DNA of 64,000 nt from the IMG/VR virus record IMGVR_UViG_3300025168_000034, positions 101,610 to 165,609 of that record. The stretch is one strand, 5' to 3'. A program made the position numbers and the translations under genes. Positions 55,132 through 63,198 of this stretch are shown here, piece by piece (within the stretch, counting starts at the first letter, position 1; each line of letters starts with the position of its first letter). Source of the stretch: a virus. The notes under the pieces are model-generated. The model made no database searches. It worked only from the letters and a program-made list of their open reading frames with translations, and was not told the DNA's origin.

Positions 55132-55542
55132 TTATACTTTCAACTTTTTACCCGATGTTTTAAAATTAAGTTTACGCATAACTGTTTTAGATATTAAGTC
55201 CAGTTTTTTGGTTCTAGGATTGAATCTAAGAACAAACGGTACGTTAATATTAGATTCCATATCAGTGATTACAGCCTCTCCACTAGCTCCTAAACTCTTT
55301 ATCTCCTGTCCGTGATCCTCATATGTCTTTGTAAACAGATCCTCAATCTCTTCTGGCTCTATTGATTTACGATTACGTATATCGTTTACTCGATCCATAA
55401 AATGTCTTGTGAATTCTATATCAATTCCAATAGCAGCAAACATCTTATCTAAGTAAGCTTCCACTTCATCTAATTCAGCTTGGTTTACTGATTCTAATAT
55501 TTGTTGTAGCTTAATCATGTTATCCTGGTACATCTTCTTCAA
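55132..55542 (-). CDS. Unknown small protein with LxE leader
   Basis: 136 aa, unrecognised. The leader (MIKLQQILES after an upstream possible start) contains I-L-E before Ser at residues 15-18. The body is helical (EVEAYLDKMFAAIGIDIEF, then TRHFMDRVNDIRNRKSI) and ends in a beta/basic stretch (FNPRTKKLDLISKTV). It overlaps the LamG gene by 23 nt. The leader suggests packaging, like the cluster at 6.4-12.6 kb. Confidence 0.6.
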   Translation of the reverse strand: MKKMYQDNMIKLQQILESVNQAELDEVEAYLDKMFAAIGIDIEFTRHFMDRVNDIRNRKSIEPEEIEDLFTKTYEDHGQEIKSLGASGEAVITDMESNINVPFVLRFNPRTKKLDLISKTVMRKLNFKTSGKKLKV

Positions 55543-56518
55543 ACACTATTCCCTCTCCGGTGAGTGTACCATTAACACTACCTACCTGATCAGTTACTGT
55601 TGTTCCAGTACCTCCATCATTATCACCCATTCTATAATAATGTTGGATAGCTATAAATTGGTTACTATAATCAATGCTAGTAGCATCTGTAGGAACACCA
55701 CTATTATATAAGTTACTTACATCAGATTGAGCCAAAGATCCAGTAAAGTATACAAATTCATCTATATTGCCGTTCATAAAATCACTTGCACCATTACGTG
55801 AACCAATGTGGAATGGTGTTGTGTCATTGGTAGAAGATCCTGGAGTCATGTTGCTGGTATCAAATGATTCCGCGTGTGTCCCATTTGATGATTGTGATAC
55901 ACGACTAATACCATTTACATATATATCCATTCCAGAACTACTAAAATTTCCATTATATGTTACTACCAGATGATACCAACCAAGTGATGCGTTTGGAATA
56001 ATATTACCTCCTCCAGCATTGTCTGATCCACTGTGTACAGCAGATCTTACAGTTAATCCCTTAGGATTGTTGGTGACGGGCTCCCGTCCTTGAATTAAAA
56101 CTTTTACTCCACTAAAACTATCTACAGTTAAACTTAATCCTTTATATTCTACACCTCGACCTGAAGCTACTTTACTAGCAATTCTAACTCCGCTTTCTCC
56201 TGGATTTGAATCATGTTTTACCCATGTACTTATACTAAAAGAACTGGAAGGTGAGATTACCATATTATCACCAAACCCTATAGTACTATCCGCTACATCT
56301 CCATCAAATTTAGCAGAGTAGGTGTTTGTAAAACCACTGGCTGCAGCTGTTCCAGTATTACTACCGTAAGCCTGTAGATGTTGTTGATATCGCAAAAAAG
56401 CCTCTTTCCTTCTTCTTTGATCTTGTTTCTTTTTAGCTTTAAACGCTCCTTCCTCCTGCAACTTTTGTTTTTTTGCTAACTCACGAATATAATCTGCATT
56501 CCTTAGAAAATCTTTCAT
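55520..56518 (-). CDS. LamG-domain protein with helical leader
   Basis: 332 aa. Residues 1-50 are a charged helix (ELAKKQKLQEEGAFKAKKKQ). From ~70 to 300 a LamG/concanavalin sandwich is visible: SFSISTWVKHDSN, GWYHLVVTYNGNF, MDIYVNG, and NIDEFVYFTGSL. This family binds glycans or proteins. It sits between the Ntn hydrolase (4-nt overlap) and the 136-aa protein. It could be a virion surface or packaged protein; the evidence does not separate these. Confidence 0.72.
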   Translation of the reverse strand: MKDFLRNADYIRELAKKQKLQEEGAFKAKKKQDQRRRKEAFLRYQQHLQAYGSNTGTAAASGFTNTYSAKFDGDVADSTIGFGDNMVISPSSSFSISTWVKHDSNPGESGVRIASKVASGRGVEYKGLSLTVDSFSGVKVLIQGREPVTNNPKGLTVRSAVHSGSDNAGGGNIIPNASLGWYHLVVTYNGNFSSSGMDIYVNGISRVSQSSNGTHAESFDTSNMTPGSSTNDTTPFHIGSRNGASDFMNGNIDEFVYFTGSLAQSDVSNLYNSGVPTDATSIDYSNQFIAIQHYYRMGDNDGGTGTTVTDQVGSVNGTLTGEGIVFEEDVPG

Positions 56519-57387
56519 TTATCTGTAGTAGTTTCTATTGTAACTTGTATTTTTGGTTCATATCCTTGTGGTAATTTATTTACCAATCCTTTAAAAGTGG
56601 AGTTGCCAGCATCATGTCTAAACTCAAATTTAAGATTACTAAGATCCATCATCACTTGTGAAGATGTTGTAAATCCAAAACTATTATCTCGTCTATACGG
56701 ATTCATCCACTTATCACTATCATGTTGCTTCGATAGAGCATCCAATACCTGCTCTTGCGATGAAATATCCGACAATGCATCGTAAGCTATTTGTTGCCTA
56801 GACAAAGAAGATTTTCTTTTTAATCCACCCGTATAACCAGTATCAGGATACTCAACTCCATGGTTAGTTCTTGTCACTACTTCATCAGGACCTATTCGCT
56901 TTATTATAGGAACATGTTGTGAAGTCATTTCAATAATATAGCTATGCTTAGCGTTTGATACAATTGTAAGCCCCTTGACCCCAACATCATCTTCATCATC
57001 ACCTCTAAAATTAATCACCGATCTCATAGATTGTGATAATTTAGATTGTTGTAATGCGGTTCTGATTTTTAATCCATCATAAGAAGGCTTACCATTCTTA
57101 CCTTTTTTAGCTTTATCTTTTGCTAAATCTCCCTCTTTTTCATCAAAACCAACCATTAAAGATGCATTTACTACACCAATACCCTTCTCATTTAGACCTT
57201 CACTCCAATCGGTTAAGACGTCTCGCATATAAACCATCTCTATACCATTCACAATTTCGTGCACTACTTCAAGATCTGGAGCATACATTCTATCGCGGTT
57301 CTTTGCCAAAACTACATTGCCATCAACACGGCAGCGCGCAATCACACACTCGTTTAATTCGTGAAGAAGGTTACGTAATTTTATCAT
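56515..57387 (-). CDS. Ntn-type hydrolase (C45/choloylglycine-hydrolase-like) with LNE-Cys leader
   Basis: 290 aa. Family-like features are the presumed nucleophile C14 in NECVIARCRVDGNVVLAKNRDR, with N30-R31-D32 matching the conserved segment after the nucleophile, EGLNEKGIGVVNAS matching the conserved second strand block, and VTRTNHGVEYP matching the later Asn/His region. These enzymes cut linear amides such as bile-salt conjugates, penicillins or N-acyl lactones; the substrate here is unknown. The first 13 residues (MIKLRNLLHELNE) end in L-N-E, a prohead-protease-type site, so processing would expose Cys14. A TATTTATT element is 12 nt upstream. Confidence 0.78.
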   Translation of the reverse strand: MIKLRNLLHELNECVIARCRVDGNVVLAKNRDRMYAPDLEVVHEIVNGIEMVYMRDVLTDWSEGLNEKGIGVVNASLMVGFDEKEGDLAKDKAKKGKNGKPSYDGLKIRTALQQSKLSQSMRSVINFRGDDEDDVGVKGLTIVSNAKHSYIIEMTSQHVPIIKRIGPDEVVTRTNHGVEYPDTGYTGGLKRKSSLSRQQIAYDALSDISSQEQVLDALSKQHDSDKWMNPYRRDNSFGFTTSSQVMMDLSNLKFEFRHDAGNSTFKGLVNKLPQGYEPKIQVTIETTTDK

Positions 57388-57412: not shown

Positions 57413-57820
57413 CTATTCTTTAGTTTCCTTATGCTGATCAATCTTTTCTAGTATTTTCTTGAAGAGGTCTGTTTTTATCCATCCACTCAGCGACGCATTC
57501 TTTAATGCGCTAACTATTTGGAAAATTAAAAATGGCACAATAACTGTTTCACTTAACCAAGAGGTTCCTACAAAACTCTTCTCTATAGAAAGGAGTACAC
57601 CTAATATAACCCACCACAAAGCTAAAGTTCTTAAAACTTTTATTGCTTTATATGTTCTAAATCCTTCTCTTTTAACACCTGCTATAACACCAAAAAAGCC
57701 ATCCAATAATACAACACAACCTACTGATAAAAATTGTTCTGCATTATCCATAGCAAGACCTAGGAAGTAAGAACACACAAAGGCGCATGTAGTTGTTATT
57801 GAGATTACTGCAGTTTTCAT
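57413..57820 (-). CDS. Holin-like membrane protein
   Basis: 135 aa with three or four hydrophobic helices (MKTAVISITTTCAFVCSYFLG; LSVGCVVLLDGFFGVIAGV; LRTLALWWVILGVLL; VPFLIFQIVSAL) and a charged C-terminus. LLDGFFGVIAG and the following helix resemble phage holins of the Phage_holin_4 type. It overlaps the endolysin gene by 4 nt, the usual holin-endolysin pairing. It would time membrane permeabilisation at lysis. Confidence 0.75.
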   Translation of the reverse strand: MKTAVISITTTCAFVCSYFLGLAMDNAEQFLSVGCVVLLDGFFGVIAGVKREGFRTYKAIKVLRTLALWWVILGVLLSIEKSFVGTSWLSETVIVPFLIFQIVSALKNASLSGWIKTDLFKKILEKIDQHKETKE

Positions 57821-58788
57821 AAAGCTTTAAGCATATCAACTAATTCTAATTGTGGAAAGCAATCAAACTTATCTTTACGAACATTTGTGTGAGTCCATAA
57901 TCCAAATTGCTTTGCATTATAAGCATCTGAGTTAAACTCAAAAGCATCTTTAGGATGTACTCCCTCTTTTAGGAGTTTAGGTAATCCATTAACCAGATCC
58001 ATTTTTGGATAAATGTCTTTAAGATGTAATATAAGCAATCGAAGAGCTTCAATCTGCTTTTCTGTATAAGCATGCCAGTATTGGTGTCCTCTAAACTTAT
58101 AACCTAAATCACAAACAAATTCCGGTTTAACTTCTGTATTAACATATGTGTAATATTTGTCTCCAGAGGTCGAAGGTTTCTTAGTTAGGTATCCAAAGTT
58201 ATTAAGCTCTACTCCTCCAGACATCTTTGAAATTGCAAACTTACCCACTTTACCTAAGTGCCAACCTACGTAATTATTAGGAAAACACTCTACGACAGTT
58301 CCGTCGTATTTAGCTTCTTTACCCTTTACATTAGAACCTCCAATACAGTACTGAGTAGCTACTCTTCCTCGCTTATCCTTGTTCCAGCTGTGTATGGTGT
58401 TGTATGGATTGTCCCAACCAGCAGTGTGATGTATAAAGAATCCTAACGGTTCAATCTTGCCATAATCTCTTACATACTCATCAGAATCCAAATACACCTT
58501 ATCAATCACAAGACCACCTTTAGTTGTGTATGTTCCGTGTTTTGCTAACTTATCATCTTTATCATACGCTGTATCTTCAGCCGTAGTGTCCTTAGTGTTA
58601 TCTGTGTCAATTCCTGCAGCTTCCCATGTTGCTCGACCCACAATTCCATCTGCTACCAAGCCATTTTTCTTTTGCCACTCAACTGTCAACTTCTCTGTAC
58701 CTGCACCAAATATTCCATCTGCTGGCGTACCTATCACCTTCTGCCACTCCTTTACTTCTAAACCTCTACTTCCTTTTTTTAACAACAT
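57817..58788 (-). CDS. Endolysin: N-acetylmuramoyl-L-alanine amidase with peptidoglycan-binding domain
   Basis: 323 aa. Residues 1-60 form one PG-binding domain (GSRGLEVKEWQ, PADGIFGAGT, VADGIVGRATW). A linker of ~45 residues leads to an Amidase_2 fold: GFFIHHTAG (zinc ligand H120 or H121), IHSWNKDKRG, QYCIGG, and GHQYWHAYT, then GVHPKDAF for the late ligand region. No signal peptide, so it needs the neighbouring holin for export. It is expected to cleave the stem-peptide amide of peptidoglycan. Its stop overlaps the holin start. Confidence 0.88.
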   Translation of the reverse strand: MLLKKGSRGLEVKEWQKVIGTPADGIFGAGTEKLTVEWQKKNGLVADGIVGRATWEAAGIDTDNTKDTTAEDTAYDKDDKLAKHGTYTTKGGLVIDKVYLDSDEYVRDYGKIEPLGFFIHHTAGWDNPYNTIHSWNKDKRGRVATQYCIGGSNVKGKEAKYDGTVVECFPNNYVGWHLGKVGKFAISKMSGGVELNNFGYLTKKPSTSGDKYYTYVNTEVKPEFVCDLGYKFRGHQYWHAYTEKQIEALRLLILHLKDIYPKMDLVNGLPKLLKEGVHPKDAFEFNSDAYNAKQFGLWTHTNVRKDKFDCFPQLELVDMLKAL

Positions 58789-58802: not shown

Positions 58803-59132
58803 TTAGAAATCACTCATCATAGACTCATCCACAAACTCTTGCACATCTTCTTGCTTTGCATCAATTTGCATCATAATATTAGCCTGATATCTTTTCTTTT
58901 CCTCTCCATCAACAAACACTATTATAGTAGGTAATACCACTATTTTATATTTTGTTTTTAGTTTAGGATATTTGGTAAGATCATAATACTTAACACTGCA
59001 GTCTGTTAACTTTCCGAGCCAAGCTACCTTATTAGCATCATTCCACGAAGCATTAAAATGTTTAACAACCACTTGAGAATAACTCTTCGTAGCACACAAA
59101 CATATTAACGCAAACATCAATATTAATCTCAT
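58803..59132 (-). CDS. Secreted thioredoxin-fold protein lacking both active cysteines
   Basis: 109 aa with a signal peptide (MRLILMFALICLCATKSYSQ). The remainder has thioredoxin order: VVVKHFNASW, a middle DLTKYPKLKTKYKI and the cis-Pro strand VVLPTIIVFVDG (P68). The catalytic site WCxxCK is WNDANK (residues 30-35), with Asn in place of both cysteines. It is therefore probably not a redox enzyme but a binding or chaperone-like periplasmic protein. It is the last gene of the envelope cluster, just before the endolysin. Confidence 0.75.
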   Translation of the reverse strand: MRLILMFALICLCATKSYSQVVVKHFNASWNDANKVAWLGKLTDCSVKYYDLTKYPKLKTKYKIVVLPTIIVFVDGEEKKRYQANIMMQIDAKQEDVQEFVDESMMSDF

Positions 59133-59137
59133 AGCTT

Positions 59138-59422
59138 TTATCTTAGTTTGTCAATTTTTTCCTCTATACGATCCATATCTTCCTTCAACTCTGTGACATC
59201 TTCTTGAGTTGTCATAATAGTTTGTCGAACCAACTGATCTTTCATATCGTACTCCATCCGTGTCACTTCAGGATCTGGAGGGATCGGAAGCTCTTTTGCT
59301 TCTTGTATATCTGCTTGTAATGCAAACCACATTCCTACTATGGTCGCAATTGCAAAAGCAAGACCTACCAAAGTTTTGATACTTATCTTAAAACCTGTAT
59401 CCTCATTTAACTCTTTTGCCAT
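59138..59422 (-). CDS. Small single-pass membrane protein
   Basis: 94 aa. A membrane helix at residues ~16-33 (LVGLAFAIATIVGMWFAL), then a short Pro-rich hinge and a charged coiled coil (EDVTELKEDMDRIEEKIDKL). Similar in layout to spanin or holin accessory proteins, but no family match. It lies 2 nt from the outer-membrane-like gene. Confidence 0.62.
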   Translation of the reverse strand: MAKELNEDTGFKISIKTLVGLAFAIATIVGMWFALQADIQEAKELPIPPDPEVTRMEYDMKDQLVRQTIMTTQEDVTELKEDMDRIEEKIDKLR

Positions 59423-59424
59423 TT

Positions 59425-60489
59425 TTAAAAAATTATGTAATTGACACCAACACTAAAGTTGTGCCAACTACGATTCCAGTACTTGTTATATTTGCCTTCT
59501 AGGAACACTCCTAAGCTTTTATTGAACTTGTAACCGAAAATTAATCCTCCAGAATAGTCGATCCACTGACCGCTGTTAAAGTTGTGATATGAGTAATCAC
59601 CATCTGCCTTTAGGTGCACTGGCATTACATTACCCCATGAGTGCAACCAAAAATCTTTAGTATAATGATAGAAGTCAAACCCTATAACAAGGGAATGATT
59701 CCACTGTAAAGGTAGAGCACTTCGCTCTTCCTCTGTGTATTTTGCTAACACTTCTGGAACAACAACCGCTTCCCACACTTGAGTGTTTTCTGCTACTAAC
59801 TCTCCTGCTGGATCAAAATATGTAACACCACCAAAACCATCAAATTCAACTGAATACCCTTCTTGTATTGCTAACTGAGTGTAGTGCAGATTACCATCGG
59901 ATAACAACCAACTTTCTAATGGATTGTATCCATATGGCTCCGATATACGCTGTACTGCTCCTATATTAAACGACAACTTATCGCCTACTTTTTGTCTATA
60001 TCTTTCTGAAGATTCAAAATATTGAATATCTGCAAATCCATCTTGGACATACTCAACCTTAGCTATCCAATGATTAGCTACATATCGTAAAAAATGATCT
60101 TGATTAAAAAACGACGTTCCTTGCTGTCTAGTCCAATCTGCCTCAAATAAAAATTCAAAGCCATTTATTTTTCCAATTGTAGCAGCGTCTCCGTATGATT
60201 TTTCTGTACCGTCATAAAACACATTAGCTCGATTTTCATAACCAAATCTAGCAATCTTTCTCACACCTATTGCAATAGAATAATCAAAAGGTGTTTTAAC
60301 TGTGTTTGTCTGCAATCCATCTGTCACTGAAAATACATCGACATCTGAAATTGAGTTACCACCCGAGACTGCTCCATAAAACGTAGAGTATTTGACTAAC
60401 TTTTTAACAGTCTTAGAGAATTTAGATTGCTCTTCTTGACCGAATAATATTGTTGGTATTAGTAAGAATAGTATTAAAAGCTGCTTCAT
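59425..60489 (-). CDS. Outer-membrane beta-barrel-like protein
   Basis: 354 aa with a signal peptide (MKQLLILFLLIPTILFGQ). The mature part consists of alternating polar/aromatic strands (FGYENRANVFYDG; GGLIFGYKFNKSLGVFLEG; WHNFSVGVNYIIF) and ends in Phe, the usual C-terminal signal for barrel insertion. No phage virion motif is seen. Expression could place a new barrel in the host outer membrane, for example to alter permeability or block receptor use. It is coupled to the T9SS gene upstream by ATGA. Confidence 0.75.
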   Translation of the reverse strand: MKQLLILFLLIPTILFGQEEQSKFSKTVKKLVKYSTFYGAVSGGNSISDVDVFSVTDGLQTNTVKTPFDYSIAIGVRKIARFGYENRANVFYDGTEKSYGDAATIGKINGFEFLFEADWTRQQGTSFFNQDHFLRYVANHWIAKVEYVQDGFADIQYFESSERYRQKVGDKLSFNIGAVQRISEPYGYNPLESWLLSDGNLHYTQLAIQEGYSVEFDGFGGVTYFDPAGELVAENTQVWEAVVVPEVLAKYTEEERSALPLQWNHSLVIGFDFYHYTKDFWLHSWGNVMPVHLKADGDYSYHNFNSGQWIDYSGGLIFGYKFNKSLGVFLEGKYNKYWNRSWHNFSVGVNYIIF

Positions 60490-62888
60490 TGTTTTATAAT
60501 TCTTTTAGTAAATCTCTTTTCTTCATGTATTAGTGTTAAGAGATATACACCGGTTTCATATATACCCAACTCTAAACGATTATCCTTTCCAGTCAACATT
60601 AGTTTACCCATCATATCTCTCAACTCATAATTAAATGTTAGATGTGTTTCAATAGTGACGGTGTTGTCTGTTGGGTTTGGATATACGAGAATTCCATTAA
60701 TATCCATCTCGTCAATACCCACTGGCCACCCTTGTTGACAGTAATCATACATAGATTGACATGATGCATCCCATTCATTTTCACAACAATAAACATCTAC
60801 ATCTATTACCCAAGCATAGCATCCATCATTTAACCAGTAAGGGTTTCCAGGACCACCTACACATCCTGCGTCATATAGACAAGCTAATGAGTCTGTTACA
60901 TTTGCTGTTGGATCATAATTAAATGCATTTGGATCTGTACATCCAGCAACTGGCAATATACATGTCCCATTATCTGTATTAGCTAGGGGATCGAAGTTTA
61001 ATGCTGTTGAGTCTATACACCCAAAAGTGACTGGTATACAAGATCCATTATCCGTATTGGCTAATGGATCGTAATTAAATTGTGTAGGGTCCATACAACC
61101 ATAAATAACATCTATACAGCTTCCATTGTCGGTGTTTGCGTTTGGATCGTAATTAAAGGCGTTAGGATCTGTACATCCATATATTGGATAAATACATGTA
61201 CCATTATCGACGTTTGCTGTAGTGTCATAATTTAGAGCAGTTGAGTCTGTGCATCCAAAATATATACAAGAACCGTCATCAACATTAGCAAGAGAATTGT
61301 AGTTGTAAGATATAGAATCCATACAACCATATACTGTAGCAATACATGAACCATCATCAACGTTTGCATTTGGATTATAGTTAAATGCTAGGTTATTTGT
61401 ACAACCTTCTATGATTGCAATACATGAACCATCATCGGTATTGGCTAATGAATCGTAATTAAATGAAGTAGAATCCATACAACCATATATTTTAGGTTCA
61501 CAATAATCTCCACAGAATGGCAATGCAGAATATGTAATCCATGTTGGTTCTTCAAAAGGCTGTAATGCTCCTTGTCCATTATTTGCAAATGGATTAGCAC
61601 CTTCTTCTAACAGCACAACACCATCTGCATTTTCTAACTTAAATGAATTATGCCAGGTCTGGAATTGTACTTGAGAAGGTGGTTGTTGTGGTCCACCTAC
61701 TTCAAAGTAATATACCTTGACTGGTTTATCAGTATCTAATTGTAATGGAAAGGTTTGGCTAGATGCACCTGGTCCCATAGTATAAGTCCATAAATTTGTT
61801 CCTTGAGCAACACCTAAATAAGAATTACCCCATCCATCACTAGCATCATCTTCTATTGTTAGTGTGTAGTTACAAGTTGGAATTATAGCTTGCATTGTAG
61901 CATTAGAGTCATAATTAAATGCTGCAGTATCAATACACCCATACACGTGCAGATTAGCACATGTACCATCATCTATATTAGCTAGCGAATCAAATTCTTG
62001 ATATGCAGGATCTGTACATCCTAACACAGGAGTTATACCGCTACAAGGAACACCAAATACTGGTCCCGAATATGCTGTAGAACCGAAGTTAGGATTACCT
62101 AATTGCCATAAGACACTACCATTGCAATCATATATAGTAATATCACCATCAACCGTACCGCCAGTAGTTGATCCAGCTAAACCATCACCATAAGAATCAC
62201 TAAATATTAACTCTGCACCTGCAGGATCAACACATACAGTATAGCTGTAGGTTTGTCCTATATCATTAAAATCGTAAGTACCTTGTCCATTGTTTTCGAG
62301 CTGATTCCCGTTTGACAGGTCTACTAATATCCACGAAGTTTCGCTTGGATAGCTGTCTAAAGTTACCTCTACTGTTATTTCAAAATCTCCAGGATCACAG
62401 CCACTACTCCCACCTCCACCAACACAAGAACCATCATCTTCTGTCGCCCATGGATTATATGCTATAGAGTTAACATCCATACATCCAGGTATACAAGCAG
62501 ATGGAGTGTATGCTATAGTATCGGATTGTGTTCCGTTAGAATAATTTAAAATTAGATAATGTTCTACAGACCAGTTTGGAGGCATATTCGGTGTTCCGGC
62601 AAATACACCAAAGTTGCCTTGAGGTGAACTTGAAGGATATCCTATTGGATATATAAATGGTCCAACTCCTGCGGCAGTTGAATACTCTACCGAAACAACA
62701 TCCTCATTGCAATTAGCAGTAGTATCGTTAAACCATTCAAATATAATAATTACTTGACTTCCACCATTAATGCATTGTTGATATGCATTTGAACTTATAA
62801 AGTTGCAAGGTGTTTGCGCAATAGAAATTATTGGCAATAAAACCGCTAACAGAAACGCACTAAAACTCTTCGTCAGAAACTTCTTCAT
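60486..62888 (-). CDS. Secreted repeat protein with T9SS C-terminal sorting domain
   Basis: 800 aa from ATG 62888 (MKKFLTKSFSAFLLAVLLPI signal peptide); an upstream start would add a non-signal segment, so this one is preferred. The middle holds eleven cysteine-containing modules of the type GC-x-D-(6)-N-Y-D-x-x-A-N-x-D-D/N-G-S/T-C, eight of them in tandem, plus domains such as FSDSYGDGLAG. A Cys-rich segment precedes the C-terminal type A sorting domain: VYPNPTDNTVTIE, then GVYLLTL and KRIIKQ. Such a domain directs export through the type IX secretion system and surface attachment. The stop overlaps the barrel gene's start. Confidence 0.86.
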   Translation of the reverse strand: MKKFLTKSFSAFLLAVLLPIISIAQTPCNFISSNAYQQCINGGSQVIIIFEWFNDTTANCNEDVVSVEYSTAAGVGPFIYPIGYPSSSPQGNFGVFAGTPNMPPNWSVEHYLILNYSNGTQSDTIAYTPSACIPGCMDVNSIAYNPWATEDDGSCVGGGGSSGCDPGDFEITVEVTLDSYPSETSWILVDLSNGNQLENNGQGTYDFNDIGQTYSYTVCVDPAGAELIFSDSYGDGLAGSTTGGTVDGDITIYDCNGSVLWQLGNPNFGSTAYSGPVFGVPCSGITPVLGCTDPAYQEFDSLANIDDGTCANLHVYGCIDTAAFNYDSNATMQAIIPTCNYTLTIEDDASDGWGNSYLGVAQGTNLWTYTMGPGASSQTFPLQLDTDKPVKVYYFEVGGPQQPPSQVQFQTWHNSFKLENADGVVLLEEGANPFANNGQGALQPFEEPTWITYSALPFCGDYCEPKIYGCMDSTSFNYDSLANTDDGSCIAIIEGCTNNLAFNYNPNANVDDGSCIATVYGCMDSISYNYNSLANVDDGSCIYFGCTDSTALNYDTTANVDNGTCIYPIYGCTDPNAFNYDPNANTDNGSCIDVIYGCMDPTQFNYDPLANTDNGSCIPVTFGCIDSTALNFDPLANTDNGTCILPVAGCTDPNAFNYDPTANVTDSLACLYDAGCVGGPGNPYWLNDGCYAWVIDVDVYCCENEWDASCQSMYDYCQQGWPVGIDEMDINGILVYPNPTDNTVTIETHLTFNYELRDMMGKLMLTGKDNRLELGIYETGVYLLTLIHEEKRFTKRIIKQ
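60867..61484 (-). repeat. Eight tandem GCxD...NYD..AN.D.GSC modules
   Basis: Tandem coding repeats of about 24-26 codons inside the T9SS-sorted protein. Copies differ at both DNA and protein level, so the array is old or under selection, yet Cys, Asn, Asp and Gly positions are kept. Three further degenerate copies lie upstream in the protein. Confidence 0.85.
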
Positions 62889-63198
62889 TTTTATTGTTAC
62901 TTTTGTTGTTACTAAACACCTTACCAATCTCAGCAATACCAAAACTACCTAAGGTTACTATTAAAAATGAGTTATAAATAAACTCCGAAATAACTAGATG
63001 GTTACCTAACACACCAGTTATAATGTCTGTGATTGCAAATATTGCCATCATACCAAATGAAAGAAAACCAACTATAGTTTTCTCATTGATACCATTATCG
63101 TCTTTGAAAATATCTCTAAAAGCCATAAATTTTCTATTTAAGAACATCACAATTCTTGAAACCTTTATAGCATTATATAACCTCTTAAAGATGCTCAT
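62860..63198 (-). CDS. Two-TM membrane protein, possibly holin-like
   Basis: 112 aa. Basic N-terminus, then two hydrophobic helices (TIVGFLSFGMMAIFAITDII; SFLIVTLGSFGIAEIGKVF) and a charged tail. The small size and two-helix topology would fit a holin or antiholin, but the recognised holin-like gene lies 5 kb away beside the endolysin. It is first in the envelope cluster, with a TATTTATA element 6 nt upstream, immediately after a terminator. Confidence 0.62.
   Translation of the reverse strand: MSIFKRLYNAIKVSRIVMFLNRKFMAFRDIFKDDNGINEKTIVGFLSFGMMAIFAITDIITGVLGNHLVISEFIYNSFLIVTLGSFGIAEIGKVFSNNKSNNKNEEVSDEEF

Follow-up and report, generated by a model that had tools for sequence, protein, structure and literature searches.

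A phage gene family with type IX secretion sorting tails and adjoining genes for putative envelope proteins

The cargo gene and its type A sorting domain

We analysed a 64,000-nucleotide stretch of viral DNA (positions 101,610 to 165,609 of IMG/VR record IMGVR_UViG_3300025168_000034; hereafter the window) that carries, at 60486..62888 on the minus strand, a gene resembling the cargo genes of the type IX secretion system (T9SS). The open reading frame (ORF) begins with an ATG at 62888, its stop codon ends at 60486, and its 800-residue product combines a signal peptide, a stalk of cysteine modules and a type A C-terminal domain (CTD). Residues 1-24 (62817..62888, minus strand) form a signal-peptide-like N-terminus, recognised from the sequence and by a lax heuristic; on this heuristic alone the predicted signal peptide ends in SIA and the mature protein would start at Gln25. 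Behind it lie an N-terminal domain (residues 28-132; 62493..62807, minus strand), fibronectin-III-like in the predicted model, and eleven GCx[D/N]...C modules (residues 135-670; 60879..62486, minus strand), two of them irregular, with two beta regions interspersed. A conserved cysteine domain ahead of the tail (residues 673-722; 60723..60872, minus strand) recurs in 90/90 complete family members at a median identity of 74%. The protein ends in a T9SS type A sorting domain (residues 735-800; 60489..60686, minus strand), assigned from TIGR04183, PF18962 and the model fold.

An initial annotation, made without database searches, had described the signal peptide, the eleven modules and the sorting domain, and this description is confirmed well beyond chance. 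It had also proposed TIGR04183 as a check, and the C-terminus (VYPNP...GVYLLTL...KRIIKQ) passes that profile with 41.9 bits (E 7.4e-11; cut-off 23), the sole match to it in the whole 165,609-base record. PF18962 is matched with 33.5 bits (cut-off 27). In the available sections of PMC10202324, the type A CTD is described as a seven-strand immunoglobulin-like fold whose C-terminal lysines are needed. Our AlphaFold2 model of the protein has a mean predicted local distance difference test score (pLDDT) of 71.7 and a predicted template modelling score of 0.37, with pLDDT at 77-88 over most of the CTD, where seven strands are predicted at residues 734-799. The CTD model matches CTDs whose structures were solved in T9SS complexes: it aligned to 8glk_D with a TM-score of 0.74 by target length (Z 8.7, 69 residues, root-mean-square deviation 2.3) and to the RgpB CTD 7pq4 with Z 8.3. 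The family alignment places the conserved lysines (motif E) in the last 13 residues, which end FTKRIIKQ. A seven-strand CTD with conserved C-terminal lysines is likewise found in RgpB, NucA and RemZ (CTDs 7pq4, 8glk and 8gl8), whereas the cargo described here is encoded by a virus. By profile cut-off, predicted CTD fold, motif E lysines and, on the lax heuristic, a Sec signal peptide, the predicted protein has the features of a type A cargo.

The region ahead of this end varies among relatives. The module region was matched in 90/90 complete members, with 6-27 modules per protein (n=90), and residues 26-132 found a blastp match in 32/90. Because residues 26-132 are matched in so few, the N-terminal domain appears to be exchangeable, sitting at the tip of a stalk that varies in length and leads to a constant end. 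We infer disulfide pairing of the modules. Compared with the PDB, the modules gave a best E of 0.091. The beta regions of the predicted model have fold matches to fibronectin-III, SiiE and ice-adhesin, all of a generic kind. A match of the family profile to MPEG1 (E 0.017) was taken as chance.

Two alternative C-terminal tails within one probably viral family

To describe the family we used two overlapping sets of loci. A viral scan found 170 stretches encoding relatives of the cargo, the best 80 of which were kept and gave 79 cargo-seeded loci; a second set consists of the best 80 of 564 stretches, seeded with the putative outer-membrane barrel encoded next to the cargo (see below). The two sets share contigs and contain near-copies, and a locus that reaches the end of its contig is cut off there. 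When we aligned 65 C-termini (that of the window, an identical copy in L002 and 63 others), 35 matched TIGR04183 and 35 matched PF18962. The other 30 end in a tail of about 40 residues with the approximate consensus KKLIxITDLLGRPxKxxKNKLLFYIYxDGTVEKKLIK, which we call the mini tail. With tail models built from family members, the 141 3'-complete ORFs of all loci, which have 111 distinct C-termini, comprised 79 of type A, 30 with a mini tail, 0 with both and 2 with none. A sorting tail is thus present in 109/111 distinct C-termini, and the two members without one (L030 and L066) are apparently frame-broken. The 42 distinct C-termini found in barrel-seeded loci only, outside model building, were all of type A, some being near-copies of those used.

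Scanned alone against Pfam and NCBIfam, 0/30 mini tails matched TIGR04183, PF18962 or any other T9SS model; in each library, one mini tail had a chance match to an unrelated family. When hhalign was used to compare the mini-tail profile with that of type A, as a test for homology to the C-terminal half of the type A CTD, P was 3.3e-4 over 36 columns, but the probability was 38%. We also built a tree on the region ahead of the tail (64 rows, 150 columns). The tail type changes at least six times on this tree, four of the changes being forced by well-supported branches; shuffled labels average 21.6. Among 19 large related records, selected for carrying the cargo family, 17 have a TIGR04183 match over the cut-off (one of them, G135, with a second match below it) and 2 have a mini tail. 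The record of the window has the TIGR04183 match and no mini tail. Near the mini-tail cargo, a scan of 48 of 55 picked long ORFs, with seven very long ones left out, returned matches to phage-type genes, including tail fibre and virion structural families and ribonucleotide reductase.

PMC10202324 distinguishes CTD types A, B and C. For HBP35 it states that the final 22 residues of the CTD are enough for secretion, which makes a signal of about 40 residues credible. In our view the mini tail is a likely sorting signal, still short of proof, and we keep it apart from type A.

We then asked how far the family extends. Two conserved peptide patterns, searched against 84,980 bacterial and archaeal genomes, yielded 20 candidates and 2 confirmed loci. 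One, L160 (NZWA01000061.1), lies in a Flavobacteriales metagenome-assembled genome (MAG) and shares 10,891 bases with the viral contig L006 at 100% identity; the other, L161 (CALBOT010000064.1), lies in an archaeal (Nitrosopelagicus) MAG and has the genes for cargo, barrel, coiled coil and thioredoxin-like protein in a row. Given the identity to L006 and the four-gene row in L161, we take both for viral contigs that binning placed in MAGs. Only one of 50,697 phage records, Marine virus AG-345-P14, matched the cargo, at two places; the match is partial, covering 14% of the query inside the modules (45.9% identity, E 2e-8). The barrel, coiled-coil and thioredoxin-like proteins had no match at 0.01 in the same records. 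From the binned contigs and the single partial match, the cargo family looks viral and uncultured within reach of these searches. The portal family phrog_213 was found in 9/20 large related records, the remainder being fragments or divergent.

The mini tail itself recurs in bacteria. The mini-tail model A2 has 14 matches in the MAG holding L160, which also has 42 TIGR04183 matches (41 over the cut-off). In the Flavobacteriales order of this MAG, 37/118 genomes have A2 matches, up to 50 per genome and at least 20 in 18/37; among 296 genomes drawn from its phylum there were two such genomes, one being the same MAG, and in the phylum of the archaeal MAG A2 had no match in any of the 121 genomes scanned. 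Thirty-six of the 37 mini-tail genomes measure 1.0-2.0 Mb and one 4.0 Mb, and the T9SS translocon SprA was matched in 36/37. The 39 bacterial mini-tail matches that we looked at came from the best-scoring loci; all 39 end 0-4 residues before the stop, and 11/39 of their ORFs also contain the GCxD...C module. A signal-peptide-like start was found in 17/22 complete bacterial mini-tail ORFs, a weak enrichment over other complete ORFs of the same loci (15/35 at 150 residues or more, 8/13 at 250 or more). The bacterial loci L162-L198 display an unannotated C-terminal tail of about 40 residues in a subset of Flavobacteriales.

Adjoining genes and the host

The cargo gene is followed by three genes for predicted envelope proteins. 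The first (59425..60489, minus strand) encodes a putative outer-membrane beta-barrel with a signal-peptide-like start, its ATG overlapping the cargo stop (ATGA). The barrel has no match at 0.01 in Pfam or NCBIfam; its model (mean pLDDT 72.3) resembles outer-membrane barrels, with Tsx as best fold match (Z 14.5, 188 residues, root-mean-square deviation 3.3). We considered whether the barrel is a PorV/PorP-like shuttle, which is not supported: its fold is closest to Tsx among the matches listed, and PorV and PorP are absent from the best 50, a listing that excludes nothing. The second gene (59138..59422, minus strand) encodes a 94-residue protein in which a single membrane helix at the N-terminus and a coiled coil were recognised by eye; its PHROG matches are weak and to families of unknown function. 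The third (58803..59132, minus strand) encodes a thioredoxin-like protein with a signal-peptide-like start, no CxxC motif and a Pfam match below the cut-off.

These genes travel together; the initial annotation had noted neither these conserved neighbours nor the alternative mini tail. In the 80 barrel-seeded loci, the cargo is present in 73 and the coiled-coil and thioredoxin-like genes in 66 each; of the 79 cargo-seeded loci, 71 have the barrel, 70 the thioredoxin-like gene and 69 the coiled coil. All four lie on one strand in every locus. Cargo and barrel are both seen in 143 loci, of which 98 have the cargo upstream of the barrel and 45 have it downstream. Upstream of the cargo and overlapping its start is a small membrane protein, recognised by eye (62860..63198, minus strand), with relatives near many family members.

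Downstream of the module are an endolysin with PG_binding_1 and Amidase_2 matches (57817..58788, minus strand) and a holin matching Phage_holin_4_1 (57413..57820, minus strand). The initial annotation had spoken of a lytic-type gene cluster. This is right for the window, but of 151 cargo loci only 31 have an endolysin or holin that can be recognised as similar to that of the window, a count that would miss diverged ones, and beyond close relatives the lysis genes are less constant. Genes for a portal, a large terminase and a baseplate wedge protein are also present in the window, and from them we infer a contractile tail. Just after the holin, at 56515-57387 (minus strand), is a possible phage acylase with a match to C45 autoproteolytic acyltransferase/hydrolase (NCBIfam, 35.1 bits; cut-off 85).

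Glutamine follows the signal-peptide-like start in most N-termini of three of these proteins: 94/94 for the cargo (distinct 5'-complete members), 107/112 for the barrel and 84/98 for the thioredoxin-like protein, as against 0/19 endolysin N-termini with such a start and glutamine. This fits the Bacteroidetes Q-rule, which phages of P. gingivalis are said to have adopted (PMC10653852, available part), and adds to the case for the host phylum. The initial annotation had held that the CTD fixes the phylum. Bacteroidota as such is well supported, by the glutamine and by the occurrence of L160 in a Flavobacteriales MAG, and remains our predicted host phylum; the CTD alone does not fix it, because TIGR04183 matches 2/14 control genomes, Bacteroides ihuae and also Deinobacterium chartae. 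Some barrel and cargo signal peptides contain a lipobox-like SCxxPK(K/E)CCxQ or similar (L003 8862-9932, L016 3935-4978, L036 5854-8643, L067 5569-7899 and others), which suggests that they are lipoproteins in some form or use an unusual signal for export.

Export, function and relation to known systems

The best overall explanation, which we hold with good confidence, is that the cargo is a phage-encoded surface stalk that uses the T9SS of the host. The protein would be made during infection, leave the cytoplasm via Sec by its Bacteroidota-style signal peptide and be carried over the outer membrane by the host T9SS by way of its type A CTD. That phages use the host T9SS for a protein of their own had been proposed in the initial annotation and is, with the profile match and the kept tails, the best reading; actual transport of the cargo by this route appears very probable to us. 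The machine would be the host's, since a SprA profile matched 0/20 large related phage records. The cargo would come to lie on the infected cell or outside it, forming a cysteine-rich stalk whose length varies and whose tip can be exchanged, and would act with the phage-encoded outer-membrane barrel, the thioredoxin-like protein and the membrane coiled-coil protein, a joint action of the four-gene module that we consider reasonably likely. The sorting tag, together with the adjoining barrel and other envelope genes, indicates that these phages probably remodel the surface of infected cells. As for the purpose, the initial annotation had offered superinfection exclusion, aggregation control and post-lysis adhesion as possible roles; our first choice, plausible and tentative, is that the surface is changed so that further phages do not adsorb. 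PMC13288928 names two adhesins exported by the T9SS, SprB and RemA, as possible phage receptors, so that exclusion could plausibly work by competition for the T9SS or by masking what it exports. We see about even chances for the wider proposal that the four genes form a trans-envelope surface-display module and that the mini tail (30/111) is an unrecognised minimal T9SS sorting signal shared with Flavobacteriales.

Other explanations have to be weighed against this one. The cargo might be an adhesin that sticks infected cells or debris to cells or particles and helps released phages to meet hosts. An exchangeable tip ahead of a stalk of 6-27 modules is an adhesin-like layout, the beta regions resemble fibronectin-III, SiiE and ice-adhesin, and the modules are shared by bacterial mini-tail ORFs; the fold matches, however, are generic, and we regard this role as possible and rather doubtful. 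We find it unlikely, at somewhat longer odds, that the module is part of lysis, with the coiled coil, thioredoxin-like protein and barrel acting like spanins or weakening the outer membrane and the cargo aiding virion release or dispersal. The membrane helix plus coiled coil that we recognised by eye in the 94-residue protein resembles the topology of an inner-membrane spanin, all four genes share a strand, and endolysin and holin are directly downstream in the window. Yet these lysis genes accompany a minority of the cargo loci, diverged ones being missed, the coiled-coil protein has no spanin family match in the Pfam, PHROG and NCBIfam scans, and spanin action does not need a long stalk with a surface sorting tail.

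That the cargo is a host gene carried without function, its CTD a leftover, is suggested by the existence of bacterial proteins with the same modules and the mini tail. We think this very improbable: tails are kept in nearly all distinct C-termini and swapped for the other tail rather than lost, and the CTD is under purifying selection, with dN/dS (nonsynonymous to synonymous rates, Nei-Gojobori) of 0.07-0.14 against six of seven close relatives, rough values because dS is about 1 or above in most comparisons. The cargo gene lies 1.1 kb from the end of the record, as might be expected of an assembly chimera of phage and bacterial DNA, against which the initial annotation had advised looking for the gene in related phages. 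The order cargo, barrel, coiled coil, thioredoxin-like protein, endolysin, holin is repeated in five contigs (L002, L014, L020, L022 and L026) with five different sample numbers; cargo relatives lie well inside contigs of 100-170 kb; and the GC content of the gene is 0.370 against 0.363 for the window. As the junctions repeat across contigs, a chimera is refuted for practical purposes.

Several observations weigh against a phage surface stalk exported by the host T9SS. Besides the high dS, the CTD comparison for L014 gave a dN/dS of 0.35 at a dS of just 0.07, and three further pairs gave 0.10, 0.03 and 0.20. An even number of cysteines in the mature cargo is found in only 48/90 members, so that parity lends no support to full disulfide pairing. 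The signal-peptide heuristic was passed by 4/5 C45 proteins and 5/7 relatives of the protein at 55132-55542, none with the glutamine, and control segments of the same proteins had a fitting glutamine in 25/94 cases for the cargo, 15 for the barrel and 1 for the thioredoxin-like protein. The SprA search of the phage records matched no control genome, while the same query works in the mini-tail genomes (36/37). No family with a known exclusion function was matched.

T9SS sorting domains of phages have been in print since 2019, and the idea of exclusion since 2020. Bellas et al. 2020 (PMC7468147) describe T9SS type A sorting domains encoded by phage genes, propose that the host T9SS is used and suggest superinfection exclusion. 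Those genes encode endoglucanase, GH39 and PA14 proteins that vary among variants of one cryoconite phage, whereas the family of the window is a single cysteine-module stalk kept with three envelope genes in many phages and bearing two exchangeable tails. De Jonge et al. 2019 (PMC6949934) report T9SS sorting domains, near head genes, in crAss-like phages, which also infect Bacteroidetes; the context there is BACON domains in gut phages, and the available part of the paper makes no mention of an envelope module or a short tail. Type B cargo with PorP/SprF shuttle barrels (Paillat et al. 2025, PMC12618676, in the part available) also has a cargo gene beside an outer-membrane barrel gene, but the tail here is type A or mini and the barrel nearest to Tsx among the matches listed. 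PMC7113391 names the T9SS in a reference title only. In open-licence PMC papers we found neither the cysteine-module stalk family, nor its link to a barrel and two envelope proteins, nor the mini tail, and mini-tail peptide strings led to no paper in this literature, a scope outside which most subscription papers fall. The mini tail and the envelope module appear new.

T9SS domains had been reported here and there in phages; these results make them a conserved trait of a sizeable group of uncultured phages. They also offer a clear way to test whether a virus alters the surface of the infected cell through the T9SS. The natural exchange between a full CTD and a tail of about 40 residues points to a minimal T9SS signal, and by way of the mini tail many Flavobacteriales proteins that lack annotation could be added to those known as secreted or surface-bound.

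Scanning ten proteins of the window against PHROG a second time brought little more. Also near the lysis genes, at 55520-56518 (minus strand), is a LamG-domain protein that matches a PHROG family bearing the label tail terminator.

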